A stretch of DNA of 64,000 bases from Sphingobacteriia bacterium RIFOXYC2_FULL_35_18. GTDB taxonomy: Bacteria > Bacteroidota > Bacteroidia > Chitinophagales > Chitinophagaceae. Below the pieces are notes generated by a model. It did not search any database. It saw nothing but the letters and a program-made list of their open reading frames with translations, and was not told the origin of the DNA. A program made the translations under genes and the position numbers. Every line of letters begins with the position of its first letter. Position 1 is the stretch's first letter. Of the stretch, positions 37,748 to 42,485 are shown one piece after another. The stretch lies in assembly GCA_001829005.1 (NCBI GenBank), contig MIAG01000001.1, positions 897,007-961,006 of the forward strand, written 5' to 3'.

Positions 37748-38791
37748 CTATTTGCTGTCTAAAGTAAATCCAACAGTTGTACCCACATCAATTTTTGATC
37801 GTATATGCATTGTTTGACCATGTGCCTCAATAATATGTTTGCAAATGGCCAACCCCAGCCCTGTACCACCAACGTCTCTACTTCTTCCTCTATCTGTTCT
37901 GTAGAATCGTTCAAATACCCTAGGCAGGTGTTCTTCTGCAATCCCTATACCGTCATCACTGAGCTCTACCAAAACGTGTTCTTCATCGGTTTTGTAGATA
38001 CTTGCAATAATTTGACCTCCCTCTTTGCCGTATTTAATGGCATTGATGATAAGGTTATTGATTACTTGCCTAACTTTCTCTTTGTCTGCAAAAACAGCTA
38101 CCGGAAACTCGCACCCTTTTTTTATGCTGGAATTTATTTTTTTAGCATCTATTTTAATAGAGAGAGTCTCATAGATTTCTTTTATTAAATCTTGAATAAT
38201 GAAAGATTCTCTGTGTAATGGTTGTTCTCCACTTTCTAATCTTGAAATAGCATCTAGATCTTTAACTAGGTTTACCATTCTATCTACGTTCTTAGCCGTA
38301 TTCTCTAAAAAGCGAATACTGATTTCTCTATTGTCAATTGCCCCATCCCTTAAAGTATCTATATAGCCTTGAATGGCAAAAATGGGTGTTTTAAATTCGT
38401 GGGCTAAATTTTGTAGGAACTCTTTTCTGAAGACTTCATTTTGTTTCAAAATTTCTATTTCTGCGCTTCTTTGTTCTGCCCATTTCTCCACATCTTCTCT
38501 TACTTCATCAATGCCCTTTTGTGGTAAAATGTATTTGTAATAAGTCTCTTCTCTTTTTGATGCTTTTGTTTGATAGATGAACTTGTATATCAATTTTATT
38601 TTTCTATAAATAAAAGATTCTAAAACAAATCCTATTAACAAATAACTACCTATAAATGTTAGAATTAATGATACAATGGCTATAATTAAATCTGGTTTAA
38701 TAAACCAAATGCCAATTGAAATTGGAATAGCCAGAATAGCGGCTGTGAAGGCCGAAAGCTGCTTGGGAGAAAGATTTTTGGTGTTCAGCAT
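37748..38791 (-). CDS. phoR: Phosphate-type sensor histidine kinase (PhoR-like)
   Basis: Membrane kinase of 347 residues with two N-terminal helices (about 12-30 and 34-58) and almost no periplasmic loop, followed by HisKA with H131 in LQNLAHEFKTP and a HATPase_c domain (NLIINAIKYG, DDGIGI, FYRTDRGRSRDVGGTGLGL). Absence of a sensory periplasmic domain fits PhoR, which senses phosphate through transporter-linked partners. It lies 36 bp downstream of the response regulator gene and upstream of the DUF47-pit pair. Confidence 0.88.
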   Translation of the reverse strand: MLNTKNLSPKQLSAFTAAILAIPISIGIWFIKPDLIIAIVSLILTFIGSYLLIGFVLESFIYRKIKLIYKFIYQTKASKREETYYKYILPQKGIDEVREDVEKWAEQRSAEIEILKQNEVFRKEFLQNLAHEFKTPIFAIQGYIDTLRDGAIDNREISIRFLENTAKNVDRMVNLVKDLDAISRLESGEQPLHRESFIIQDLIKEIYETLSIKIDAKKINSSIKKGCEFPVAVFADKEKVRQVINNLIINAIKYGKEGGQIIASIYKTDEEHVLVELSDDGIGIAEEHLPRVFERFYRTDRGRSRDVGGTGLGLAICKHIIEAHGQTMHIRSKIDVGTTVGFTLDSK

Positions 38792-38827: not shown

Positions 38828-39508
38828 TCAAATTTCAAATTTGTATCCTACCCCTTTTACGGTGGTGATGCAGTCTATGCCTAATTTTTGTCTTACTTTT
38901 CTAACATGCACATCAATGGTTCTGTCGCCCACAATTACTTCATTGCCCCAAACTTGAGTGAGGATTTCATTTCTTAAAAAAACCCTTCCAGGTTTCGAAG
39001 CCAGTAAATAAATTAATTCAAATTCCTTCTTAGCCAAAATCACTTCATTTCCATCAACAGAAACTAAAAATTTAACTGGATCTATTGCAATATTGCCAAT
39101 CTGTAATGTTTTACCTGCTTCTTTACTTGTTACCCTTCTGAATAAGGCATTTACTCTGCTTACCAATACTTTAGGGCTGATGGGTTTGCTAATATAATCG
39201 TCAGCTCCTGTTTCAAGTCCTTTAATTTGAGAGCTTTCATCGCTCATAGCGGTTAGAAAAATGATTAGTGTATCTTGAAAGCTGGGCTGGGTTCTTAATA
39301 TCTGACAAACTTCAACCCCATTTTTTCTAGGCATCATGATATCAAGAATAATCAAATCGGGATAGAGTTGTTTGGCTTTCTCTATTGCTTCGTTGCCGTC
39401 CTTAGCCGTATGAACTTGGTAACCCTCTTTTTCTAGGTTGTATCGGATGATTTCTAAGATATCTGGCTCGTCGTCTGCAATTAATATCTGTTTGGCCTTC
39501 CCTTCCAT
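38828..39508 (-). CDS. phoB: OmpR/PhoB-type response regulator
   Basis: The 226 residues comprise a receiver domain (acidic DDE at 12-14, phospho-acceptor D56 in LILDIMMP, Thr in FLTAMSDE, Lys in YISKPIS) and a winged-helix output domain (RNEILTQVWGNEVIVGDRTIDVHVRKVRQKL). The receiver-winged-helix pair with phoR and the neighbouring phosphate transporter genes point to PhoB. A -7 element (TAACTTTG on the minus strand, 39534-39527) lies 19 bp before the ATG. Confidence 0.9.
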   Translation of the reverse strand: MEGKAKQILIADDEPDILEIIRYNLEKEGYQVHTAKDGNEAIEKAKQLYPDLIILDIMMPRKNGVEVCQILRTQPSFQDTLIIFLTAMSDESSQIKGLETGADDYISKPISPKVLVSRVNALFRRVTSKEAGKTLQIGNIAIDPVKFLVSVDGNEVILAKKEFELIYLLASKPGRVFLRNEILTQVWGNEVIVGDRTIDVHVRKVRQKLGIDCITTVKGVGYKFEI

Positions 39509-39525
39509 GTTAACATTCTATTTAC
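39508..39525 (+). promoter_or_regulatory. Candidate PhoB box overlapping the phoB start
   Basis: TGTTAAC-ATTC-TATTTAC, a 7-4-7 direct repeat with 11-bp spacing. It touches the phoB start codon, so binding here would repress rather than activate phoB. It matches the box at 39579-39596 at 14 of 18 positions. Confidence 0.4.
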
Positions 39526-39526
39526 A

Positions 39527-39534
39527 CAAAGTTA
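39527..39534 (-). promoter_or_regulatory. -7 element of phoB
   Basis: Minus-strand TAACTTTG, an exact TAnnTTTG match 19 bp before the phoB ATG. TTG sits 14 bp further upstream, shorter than the usual spacing. Confidence 0.5.
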
Positions 39535-39578
39535 ATTTCATTCAATCGCAATTAGCTCTTTTTGCATTATTATCTAAT

Positions 39579-39596
39579 TGTTAACTGACTGTTTAC
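39579..39596 (+). promoter_or_regulatory. Candidate PhoB box between phoB and the 39614 gene
   Basis: TGTTAAC-TGAC-TGTTTAC, 7-4-7 with 11-bp period, preceded by TATCTAAT as in the box at 37699. It is about 45 bp upstream of the phoB -7 element, a position fit for activation of phoB; it is only 17 bp before the divergent gene. Confidence 0.45.
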
Positions 39597-39613
39597 CTAT
39601 TTTTACACTGAAT

Positions 39614-41785
39614 ATGAATAAACTAATACATACTCTCTTTTTATTATTTGCTTTTAACGGGGTCCTAATTGCTCAGCAAATAGACTCTATTCCTCCAATT
39701 CCTGCAATGCGTCAATTGCATCACGAGTACATAATAAGAACCTTTAGTTCAATCAAAGCATACCCGGCAACAGATAATAAATTGTCTGATGCTGAACTTG
39801 CAATGGTCGCCAATATTATTACTAGGTTAAGAAGCAAAATAGAACTTAGTACTGAAATAGATAATAATGCAAAGTATACTTGGTTAAGGGGTGTTAATGA
39901 TTTATTGCAAGGGTATCTTGCGAATTACCAAAGTAATAAAGTAACTGGTACTCCTTTATCTAATTTATTGAATGCTTATCAGTCTGCAATGAATGAGCAA
40001 TTAACTGGAGGATCAATTGCTCCATTAATGAAGCAACTAGATGTAGAGTCAGCAATTATTTTGACAGACAATTTTGCGCTTGCCACTAATAGAGGAATGT
40101 CTGCAGCAAAGGACAGCATTTTGGTTAAGCAATGCGATCGTAATCCCGATAAAATTTTGCCCATTTTATTTAGAAGTCCTTCAACTGCTTCAGCAGACTC
40201 CTTAATTATTTTAGCAGCTTTTAGAAATCCGGAAGAGTTGTATAGTTATGCTGCAGCGCCCAATCCATTGGGTAAAAAAATTCAATCGATCAATCATCCT
40301 TTTGTGAAGTTGGTTTCAAGGCTCTCCTTAACCAGTACTGGAAGAATGTATTTTCCTTTTTTAGATCAATTGTATACGGGCAAATTGAAAATGGATTCCA
40401 TTACCAAATTTGTTGGGAATGATACTTCTGCAGGTTATTTTAGTTTATTAGTAAGAACTAGAATTGATTATGCTAAAAGAATACAACAGGGCGATACGCC
40501 AATGGCTGCAAAAGTGTTATATAATAAATTAAAAGCTAAAAGCATTGAGTTGTACATAAATGAAATCAATGCATTGCACAACGAAAAAAGTGATTTTGTA
40601 AGATTTAAAAGTATAAGCAAACTGAGTCCTCAAGAATTGTATTACTTGGCCGTTACAGGCGAAGAAGAAATGTATACATCTAGTTTTGTAAATGGGGTAT
40701 ATCCCAGAATTTTTTCTGGAATGAAAAGCCCACGGTCCGATTCTTTATTGGCAATGGTGAATAATGATCAATACAAAAAGTTTATTAAAATTACTGCAGC
40801 GTATAATAAGTTAGACGACTTTCTAGCAAAAATGGATAAGAAAGATGCAGAACAATTGATGAGAGGTTTTGTAAATGGATTAGAGAAAACCAATTCTTTA
40901 GAAGACGCGGTGGACGTGGCAGATTCTTATGCAAGCGTTTACAATCCAGCTCTTAAAAAATTAATGTTGTCTCAAGTTCAATTAGAACTCAAAAGATGTA
41001 TTGGAATAAAAAATAAGAGAGGGCAGGTAATTTATGAATTACTCGAAACTATATTTTCTTCATTAGAGCCTTCTAATAAAATTGACCTATCTGCAAAGTT
41101 GGGCATCATGCCTATTTATGAATTGCCCAATACTTATTTGAAAGACAAAGAAAATGGGAGAGTAGTGATGCAACAGTTTTTTTATGGTGATAAAGACGGA
41201 ATGGTTGTATTCAATGCATTTTTAAATAAATTCAGAAATACCAATTGGAAAATAACTAAGAAATCTCAATGGGTAGAAGTGAGTTCTAGAAAAGGTACAC
41301 CTATTACCATTTACGCAAACCTTCCATTGGATGAAACGGAAGAATTGGATGCCGCATCTCAGGATAGCTTAATTGCTTATTTGCATGAAGAAAAATTGCA
41401 CCCTTCTATTGTTATTCATCGCGGACATAGTTACTATTTAAAACAAACAGTTCATAAAATGCCATCTTCGGCAAAATTGGTTTTATTGGGAAGTTGTGGT
41501 GGTTATCAAAGCTTAAACGAAGTCTTAGAAATAGCTCCAGGTGCACATATCATTTCGTCTAAACAAATTGGTACGGGCATTATTAATCAAGGTTTAATCA
41601 ATGTGATTAGTGAAGAATTAAGGTTGGGGAAGAACTTAAAATGGCCAGCTTTATGGAATAGTTTAGCCATTCGGTTTAGTGGAACAGCCAAAGAAAAGTT
41701 TGACGATTATGTTCCTCCTTACAAAAATTTAGGCGCCATTTTTATTACAGCATTTAATACTTACATGCAGCAAGAGACTGAATAG
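39614..41785 (+). CDS. Large secreted protein with a possible clan CD cysteine-peptidase-like C-terminus
   Basis: About 723 residues from ATG 39614 (MNKLIHTLFLLFAFNGVLIAQ, a signal peptide); the frame is open from 39578. I do not recognise the first ~560 residues, which look mainly alpha-helical. Near the C-terminus a hydrophobic strand leads to IVIHRGHSYYL (H602, H605), and a second strand leads to LVLLGSCGGYQSL (C628), followed by another strand (GAHIISSKQIGTGIIN). His and Cys after hydrophobic strands, 23-26 residues apart, is the arrangement of caspase/separase-type peptidases. The enzyme call is inference. The gene is divergent from phoB with candidate PhoB sites between them. Confidence 0.7.
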   Translation: MNKLIHTLFLLFAFNGVLIAQQIDSIPPIPAMRQLHHEYIIRTFSSIKAYPATDNKLSDAELAMVANIITRLRSKIELSTEIDNNAKYTWLRGVNDLLQGYLANYQSNKVTGTPLSNLLNAYQSAMNEQLTGGSIAPLMKQLDVESAIILTDNFALATNRGMSAAKDSILVKQCDRNPDKILPILFRSPSTASADSLIILAAFRNPEELYSYAAAPNPLGKKIQSINHPFVKLVSRLSLTSTGRMYFPFLDQLYTGKLKMDSITKFVGNDTSAGYFSLLVRTRIDYAKRIQQGDTPMAAKVLYNKLKAKSIELYINEINALHNEKSDFVRFKSISKLSPQELYYLAVTGEEEMYTSSFVNGVYPRIFSGMKSPRSDSLLAMVNNDQYKKFIKITAAYNKLDDFLAKMDKKDAEQLMRGFVNGLEKTNSLEDAVDVADSYASVYNPALKKLMLSQVQLELKRCIGIKNKRGQVIYELLETIFSSLEPSNKIDLSAKLGIMPIYELPNTYLKDKENGRVVMQQFFYGDKDGMVVFNAFLNKFRNTNWKITKKSQWVEVSSRKGTPITIYANLPLDETEELDAASQDSLIAYLHEEKLHPSIVIHRGHSYYLKQTVHKMPSSAKLVLLGSCGGYQSLNEVLEIAPGAHIISSKQIGTGIINQGLINVISEELRLGKNLKWPALWNSLAIRFSGTAKEKFDDYVPPYKNLGAIFITAFNTYMQQETE

Positions 41786-42426: not shown

Positions 42427-42485
42427 ATACGTATTTTACCTGCTTTTAACGGTAAATGACTAATTTTAAATACCAAAGTTCGGAT

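Follow-up and report, generated by a model that had tools for sequence, protein, structure and literature searches.

We consider it likely that the 723 amino acid protein encoded at 39614..41785 on the + strand of the window (the whole stretch of 64,000 nucleotides that was analyzed, from Sphingobacteriia bacterium RIFOXYC2_FULL_35_18) is an exported clan CD cysteine peptidase which falls outside all the family models searched, is built of a solenoid and a caspase-like domain, and is controlled by a PhoB-like regulator. Clan CD peptidases govern irreversible decisions such as apoptosis, chromosome separation and phage defence. If our reading is true, the clan CD fold also serves housekeeping envelope regulation, and a likely function can be given to a core gene that has no model in the libraries searched. 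What we rate as new here is a family that resembles clan CD and is unusual in its location and control. The wider proposal, that a separase-like architecture acts in the envelope and not in the cytoplasm, takes its control from a two-component system of the PhoB type and serves ordinary envelope or phosphate physiology and not defence or cell death, is put forward tentatively and may well prove wrong.

The gene and the apparently exported protein

The open reading frame runs from an ATG at 39614 to a stop codon that ends at 41785, while the mechanically derived frame for the same protein starts at a TTG at 39578. Read by eye, the N-terminal looks like a Sec-type signal peptide without a lipobox (residues 1-20, 39614..39673, + strand; MNKLIHTLFLLFAFNGVLIA followed by QQ), which ends in VLIA before the QQ. 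Of 99 sequences, 95 have a hydrophobic stretch of 10 residues within their first 90, and the protein is apparently exported, either to the periplasm or out of the cell. Its closest homologues with a named record, in Sediminibacterium and Sphingobacteriia bacterium, share a protein identity of 77-97% with it.

Predicted fold

The whole protein was modelled in AlphaFold2 from an alignment of 46 sequences (pLDDT 88, pTM 0.75). This alignment contains 45 of 60 loci together with the window; 11 near-identical, partial or repeated sequences were left out beforehand, and L033, L055 and L088, in which a stop falls close to the end of the matched range, were dropped as well, as was L080, which contains an X. 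The model is helical from residue 31 and has an alpha/beta domain after that. No strand of at least three residues is predicted before residue 517, and residues 24-500 (39683..41113, + strand) form a solenoid-like helical N-terminal region. The caspase-like alpha/beta domain, as delimited by AlphaFold2 and structural alignment, would cover about residues 505-723 (41126..41782, + strand), a longer range than the 560-723 of the preliminary description.

When the domain was modelled alone (499-723), the best model reached a pLDDT of 91.2 and a pTM of 0.90, and the other four models a pLDDT of only 72-78. The predicted order of its elements is b1-a1-hairpin-b2-a2-b3-(H)-a3-b4-(C)-a4-b5-a5. A strand (517-523) is followed by a helix, a hairpin (545-558), a second strand (564-569), another helix and the strand 599-603, just before H605; past H605 come a helix, the strand 622-625 (622-624 in the whole model), C628, a helix, the strand 645-649 and a last helix. 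In the domain model there are thus five core strands, a hairpin and helices in the order expected for clan CD, a clan whose sheet has six strands, five of them parallel and one antiparallel, and whose conserved helices number five. PMC4357240 places the His/Cys dyad of this clan where strands 3 and 4 end on their C-terminal side; a Gly adjoins the His. In our model H605 and C628 are located just past core strands 3 and 4, if the hairpin 545-558 is counted apart from the core. A fold unrelated to that of caspases had been named as the outcome that would speak against the peptidase, and the predicted fold is not of that kind.

Conservation of the His/Cys dyad

The two central motifs of the domain are IVIHRGHSYY, which holds H602 (41417..41419) and H605 (41426..41428), and VLLGSCGGY, which holds C628 (41495..41497), all on the + strand. 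The preliminary description had assigned these three residues to the same positions, in HRGH and GSCGG, and this agrees with the protein sequence. It had also proposed conservation among homologues as a check, and this came out in its favor: own copy included, both His are present in 99 of 99 distinct sequences and the Cys in 98 of the 98 that reach that far. The distinct set pools 87 long sequences with L092-L105 (101 in total, 99 distinct). The 87 were taken from 91 matched frames after those shorter than 600 amino acids (L056, two pieces of L063 and L084) had been dropped, and L001, the own copy, was kept. In these 87 sequences H602 and H605 occur without exception, and C628 in 86, with a gap in the remaining one, which exceeds what chance would give. 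The pattern HRGHSY..GxCG with 23 residues between H605 and the Cys is found in 97 of the 99 distinct sequences, eight of which come from two other families, and this spacing is always 23 among sequences having both residues. As for the two that miss the pattern, in the first the contig ends right after HRGHSYY, and in the second a Phe replaces the Tyr, with both His and the Cys kept.

A stricter view is given by an alignment of 15 rows that have 36-53% identity to the window protein and span two further families; eight rows with guessed ranges are left out of it. Here 26 domain columns are invariant, with HRGHSY and GSCG as the longest runs. The other invariant domain residues include F523, D526, D528, G529, K650, N658, W677, W681, Y699, P701, P702, N705 and G707. 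G604, which precedes H605, is also invariant in the 15 rows. H605 is followed by S606, a Ser in place of a Gly, which counts against a clan CD assignment; the CHAT protein of the same genome likewise has a Ser after its aligned His.

Of the two His residues H605 is likelier to be the catalytic one, since H602 is located inside the strand 599-603 and H605 just after it, two residues past core strand 3, and since H605 coincides with the His of CHAT proteins in a weak profile alignment. H602, although conserved, was put second due to its position within the strand. C628, 3-4 residues past core strand 4, is the proposed catalytic Cys, based on conservation, the AlphaFold2 model and the same profile alignment. 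This choice bears on the spacing, for which a likeness to separase had been suggested: the 26 residues from H602 to C628 do equal the spacing in human separase (H2003/C2029; PMC9729208), but the likelier pair, H605 and C628, is 23 residues apart, so that our reading does not rest on the 26-residue spacing of separase.

The dyad would fit any acyl-enzyme chemistry, being conserved throughout, and one alternative is a caspase-fold protein without a substrate in trans: an autoprocessing enzyme, a transpeptidase or a ligase, whose dyad would serve another acyl transfer. Legumain and GPI8 are precedents for such enzymes. The C-terminal YxPPxxNxG and W/W motifs, invariant in the 15-row alignment, also agree with this option and, to our knowledge, resemble no clan CD motif; nor was a candidate substrate gene found that is conserved beside the peptidase gene across both the family and the outliers. 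However, PMC4357240 describes the enzymes of clan CD as peptidases, which hydrolyse peptide bonds, and nothing singles out a transferase. We hold this alternative to be unlikely and prefer a peptidase that cuts other proteins.

The dyad is not the sole constrained site, since the helical region has invariant patches of its own. Strongly conserved patches lie in a stretch of this region at 40565-40921 (residues 318-436), N319, H322, Y354-S357, N398 and D434 among them, and some of these (e.g., N319, H322 and Y354-S357) have a conservation of 1.0 over 87 family rows. The patches in 318-436 are perhaps a binding site or a second functional site.

Comparison with known families and structures

The preliminary description stated that the remainder of the protein matches nothing known, and Pfam, NCBIfam, PADLOC, PHROGs and the PDB sequences indeed hold no significant match. 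For the window protein the best E-values were 0.036 in Pfam and 0.024 in NCBIfam, and PADLOC and PHROGs gave no match. Over the 46 members the best Pfam E-value was 0.0095, to a DUF touched by 4 of the 46; among PDB sequences it was 0.027 (gp130) with the single sequence, and the profile found none up to E 10. The weak gp130, kinase and DUF matches were taken as chance. PF12770 (CHAT) is absent from the window protein's Pfam matches at E ≤ 1 and from those of the 46 members at E ≤ 0.1, and separase C50, C25 (PF01364), C14 (PF00656) and C11 (PF03415) are absent from the Pfam matches of both. As judged by these models, the 723 amino acid protein is not a member of the separase, CHAT, C11, C14 or C25 families.

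Direct profile comparison in hhalign gave CHAT as the best of the families compared, at an insignificant level (P 0.025, probability 1.9%; the score was reached by 2 of 150 column shuffles). A GTPase control came second (P 0.16), ahead of C25 (P about 0.3), C14 (0.26-0.29) and C11 (0.32-0.44). The profiles were built from loci of related genomes, of which 29 of 30 were used for CHAT, 30 of 30 for C25, 26 of 30 for C14, 5 of 5 for C11 and 30 of 30 for the GTPases. In the weak CHAT alignment, H605 and C628 coincide with a His and a Cys of CHAT, which we take to be its catalytic residues. The window's genome itself encodes one CHAT protein (a 948 amino acid frame; G000:C1:141472-142269, L123) and one C25-type protein (G000:C9:209218-210393), and no C14 or C11 match was found in it.

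At the level of structure, Foldseek found no match at E ≤ 0.001 for the whole model. For the domain it ranked small GTPases first (TMq 0.26-0.41), the best at E 9.5e-4 (the sole match at E ≤ 0.001), and no clan CD chain was among the 50 matches listed. VIA-align was then run on the Foldseek candidates; the tool cautions that top Z-scores of 7-8 often arise even where nothing clearly matches, and its listing lacked the legumain, caspase and metacaspase families, which may still be among the relatives. With the whole model, separase came first (7nj1, Z 9.5, 10.0 Å over 205 aligned residues; 7nj0, Z 8.9; 5fc2, Z 8.6, 3.7 Å over 162; 5fby, Z 8.6), followed by DdvA (8rot and 8rw5, Z 8.4 and 8.2), Craspase (7y85, Z 8.2; 7xsr, Z 8.1) and gingipain RgpB (4ief, Z 8.1, 3.8 Å over 172). 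The best GTPase complex, EGOC (Z 8.0), ranked below these. With the domain alone, clan CD chains took five of the first six places: SAVED-CHAT 8tl0 (Z 9.7, 3.3 Å over 160 aligned residues), C11 iotapain 6nag (Z 9.0, 4.9 Å over 187), Craspase 7y85 (Z 8.2, 3.6 Å over 145) and further C11 enzymes (Z 8.1 and 8.1), next to the GTPase Gtr1p (Z 8.2). Five kinds of clan CD enzyme thus reach Z 8.1-9.7, against 8.0-8.2 for the best other fold. The lead over the best GTPase is only Z 1.5, and the rmsd is high for 7nj1 and 6nag. It is supported by these alignments that clan CD peptidases are the best structural matches of the model, by a modest margin, and the suggestion of a caspase- or separase-like protein gains from this as well as from the strand layout.

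The same comparisons raise the question of whether the domain is a Rossmann- or G-domain-like alpha/beta domain outside clan CD, with the His and Cys serving a metal site or another enzyme. Small GTPases are the best domain matches of Foldseek, Rag and Arf GTPases reach a VIA-align Z of 7.2-8.2, and the GTPase profile control is second after CHAT. Yet the loop after strand 1 reads YGDKDG, without the P-loop GxxxxGK[ST], the TMq is 0.26-0.41, five of the six top-ranked chains for the domain belong to clan CD, and a protein with an apparent signal peptide would meet no GTP. Due to the missing P-loop and the low TM the GTPase identity was put aside, and we find an alpha/beta domain outside clan CD quite improbable.

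Known clan CD enzymes and a possible mechanism

Separase (C50) likewise has a long helical region followed by a C-terminal caspase-like domain and aligns with the whole model in four chains (Z 8.6-9.5). The window protein differs in being bacterial and apparently exported, in lacking a C50 Pfam match, and in its 23-residue spacing. TPR-CHAT also combines a helical N-terminal with a caspase-like domain, with a dyad (H585/C627) spaced by 42 residues (PMC9729208). TPR-CHAT (Csx29 of Craspase) and SAVED-CHAT resemble the window protein in the helical N-terminal (TPR-CHAT), in VIA-align Z-scores of 8.2 and 9.7 and in residues that fall in register. However, TPR-CHAT acts with a CRISPR complex inside the cell, whereas the window protein is apparently exported, is the product of a core gene, has no PF12770 match and has a spacing of 23, not 42.

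Bacteroidota also have secreted clan CD peptidases of the clostripain-like C11 family (iotapain and its relatives, Z 8.1-9.0); the window protein has no PF03415 match, and hhalign gives P 0.32-0.44. We know of no long helical N-terminal region in C11 peptidases. Gingipains (C25) are likewise exported clan CD peptidases of Bacteroidota (Z 8.1 for RgpB), and in this case the window protein lacks a PF01364 match and a sorting domain among its Pfam matches (hhalign P about 0.3). The orthocaspases, or bacterial metacaspases (C14), bear their His and Cys motifs at the same strands, yet no PF00656 match is found here (hhalign P 0.26-0.29). Open papers that link caspase-like peptidases to Bacteroidetes, to Chitinophagaceae or to CHAT were searched, and among the matches listed none deals with the protein family, judged by title and the start of the abstract.

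In the mechanism that we propose, the N-terminal alpha-helical solenoid (24-500) would carry the C-terminal caspase-like domain (505-723), in which H605 after strand 3 would activate C628 after strand 4, and C628 would then cleave a protein of the envelope or of the extracellular space at a peptide bond. Like the helical regions of separase and TPR-CHAT, the solenoid may select the substrate or restrain the protease. Here we infer proteolysis, export and the role of the solenoid. The dyad of TPR-CHAT is ~7 Å apart in the inactive and ~3 Å in the active state, and inactive human separase resembles inactive TPR-CHAT (PMC9729208). The invariant acidic D526 and D528 come right after strand 1, and the loop and helix region that holds them is part of the clan CD S1 pocket (PMC4357240), which hints at a basic P1 preference; the invariant K650 argues caution.

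Genomic neighborhood and probable regulation

Divergent from the peptidase gene lies a gene for an OmpR-type, PhoB-like response regulator (38828..39508, - strand), and behind it one for a histidine kinase of the PnpS/WalK/PhoR kind (37748..38791, - strand). Among 96 loci of the same family, counted with L001 and near-identical genomes, three were too short; in the 93 testable loci the regulator is present and divergent in 88 and absent from the flank in five, and the kinase stands behind the regulator in 85 of the 88. Pfam and NCBIfam matches define the regulator, which scores 233.7 bits with TIGR02154 (PhoB), below the cut-off of 296.2, and 223.1 bits with NF053854, a Bacteroidota PhoB model, below the cut-off of 270. 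It is nevertheless the best NF053854 match in the genome (222.7 bits; the next best has 172.5). The kinase scores best with PnpS, WalK and PhoR, and for both proteins all of the best 25 model matches are below the cut-off.

By eye, only a few residues separate the two hydrophobic segments at the N-terminal of the kinase, and no sensor domain is found among its Pfam matches. Its signal therefore probably arrives through the membrane or the cytoplasm, if this reading of the sequence is right. A cleavage of the kinase by the peptidase was considered and put aside because there is almost no loop between the segments. Such a kinase may need a partner, and it can be asked if the exported protein is a non-catalytic sensor that binds a ligand or an envelope protein and passes the signal on to the kinase. 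The conserved pairing of the peptidase and regulator genes and the invariant patches of the helical region would suit this role. But a pure sensor needs no conserved His and Cys, and in two other families the homologues lack a neighbor of this kind, and so a sensor of this kind seems to us very unlikely, and we keep to a peptidase that is regulated by the system.

In those two other families, no regulator homologue is directly beside the gene in six loci (in L251 one is located several kb off), and eight loci lack one within ~1.5 kb. In five of the six loci (L250-L254) the peptidase gene is immediately preceded by a homologous gene that points the same way and overlaps the longest peptidase frame; it encodes a SpoU-type methylase in four of the five, the four that were scanned with Pfam.

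Between the regulator and peptidase genes there are two putative regulator sites. The first consists of three repeats at 11-bp steps (GTTAAC, ATTTAC and GTTAAT; 39509..39536, + strand) directly beside the start of the regulator gene; the second, TGTTAAC-N4-TGTTTAC (39580..39597, + strand), lies before the peptidase gene, and its GTTAAC half recurs in orthologues and its second half partly. Steps of 11 bp are typical of PhoB- and OmpR-type sites. The preliminary description had noted candidate PhoB boxes upstream of the gene. TTWAC pairs do exist there, at 39510-39525 and 39581-39596, and their 11-bp spacing recurs in orthologues, but the count in the window, four against 1.6 expected, is not significant. 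In the 88 regulator-peptidase intervals, strict TTWAC pairs have a spacing of 11 in 53, and no other spacing between 6 and 19 is seen in more than 9; with one TTWAY allowed, the spacing of 11 is found in 70 intervals, against at most 21 for other spacings. The intervals end at the first matched protein residue, so that some include the start of the coding frame, and their rows are related, so that these counts are not independent events. The stricter double box TRTTWAC-N4-TDTTWAC was dropped, being present in 3 of 89 intervals only, and in two of these it duplicates that of the window. Throughout the genome GTTWAC-N5-GTTWAC has 2 matches, the first of them at this locus, against 10 for a reversed control, and for this reason no regulon is drawn. 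The second of these matches is in the middle of L249 and, judged by position, within an unrelated frame of 210 amino acids.

Based on this arrangement, we propose that the divergent PhoB-like regulator and its kinase would set transcription through the 11-bp-spaced TTWAC repeats, and we infer both that this control is direct and that phosphate is the signal. The repeats could instead serve the regulator's own gene and not the peptidase gene.

A further TTWAC pair at 11 bp (42435-42450) is seen just before a gene at 42456 which encodes a 1134 amino acid protein with a TolB-propeller-like stretch. This gene, a phosphate transporter gene, a PhoU-like gene and that of an MBL hydrolase are neighbors mostly in the nearer relatives (flanks of 1.5-4 kb).

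Distribution

The protein is found in 187 of the 195 genomes sampled from the window's family, probably Chitinophagaceae. If only genomes with a completeness of 90% or more and a contamination of 5% or less are counted, 163 of 167 have it. A single match is present in the window's own genome. Across the class, 15 of 295 sampled genomes gave a match, of which seven, including the window's, belong to the same family and eight to two other families. A query with the C-terminal domain in a phylum-wide sample of 395 genomes also gave 15 matches, 14 of them in genomes of the same family; the fifteenth (44 residues, E 5.7e-4, in a short frame that contains a stop) was taken as chance. Since nearly all good genomes of the family have the gene, against few matches in the class and phylum samples, the gene belongs to the core of one family and is thinly scattered beyond it.

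There may be a divergent subgroup inside the family, to which L097 and genomes with a best E-value of about 1e-90 to 1e-110 would belong. L097 has no adjacent regulator in its flank and keeps the dyad. Tandem double copies are seen in several family genomes (G086:C115:19246-23782, G018:C1:516540-521034 and G161:C45:114263-118624). In Sediminibacterium salmoneum NBRC 103935 (L063, about 3.9-6.1 kb) the homologue is split over two frames, by a frameshift or a sequencing error.
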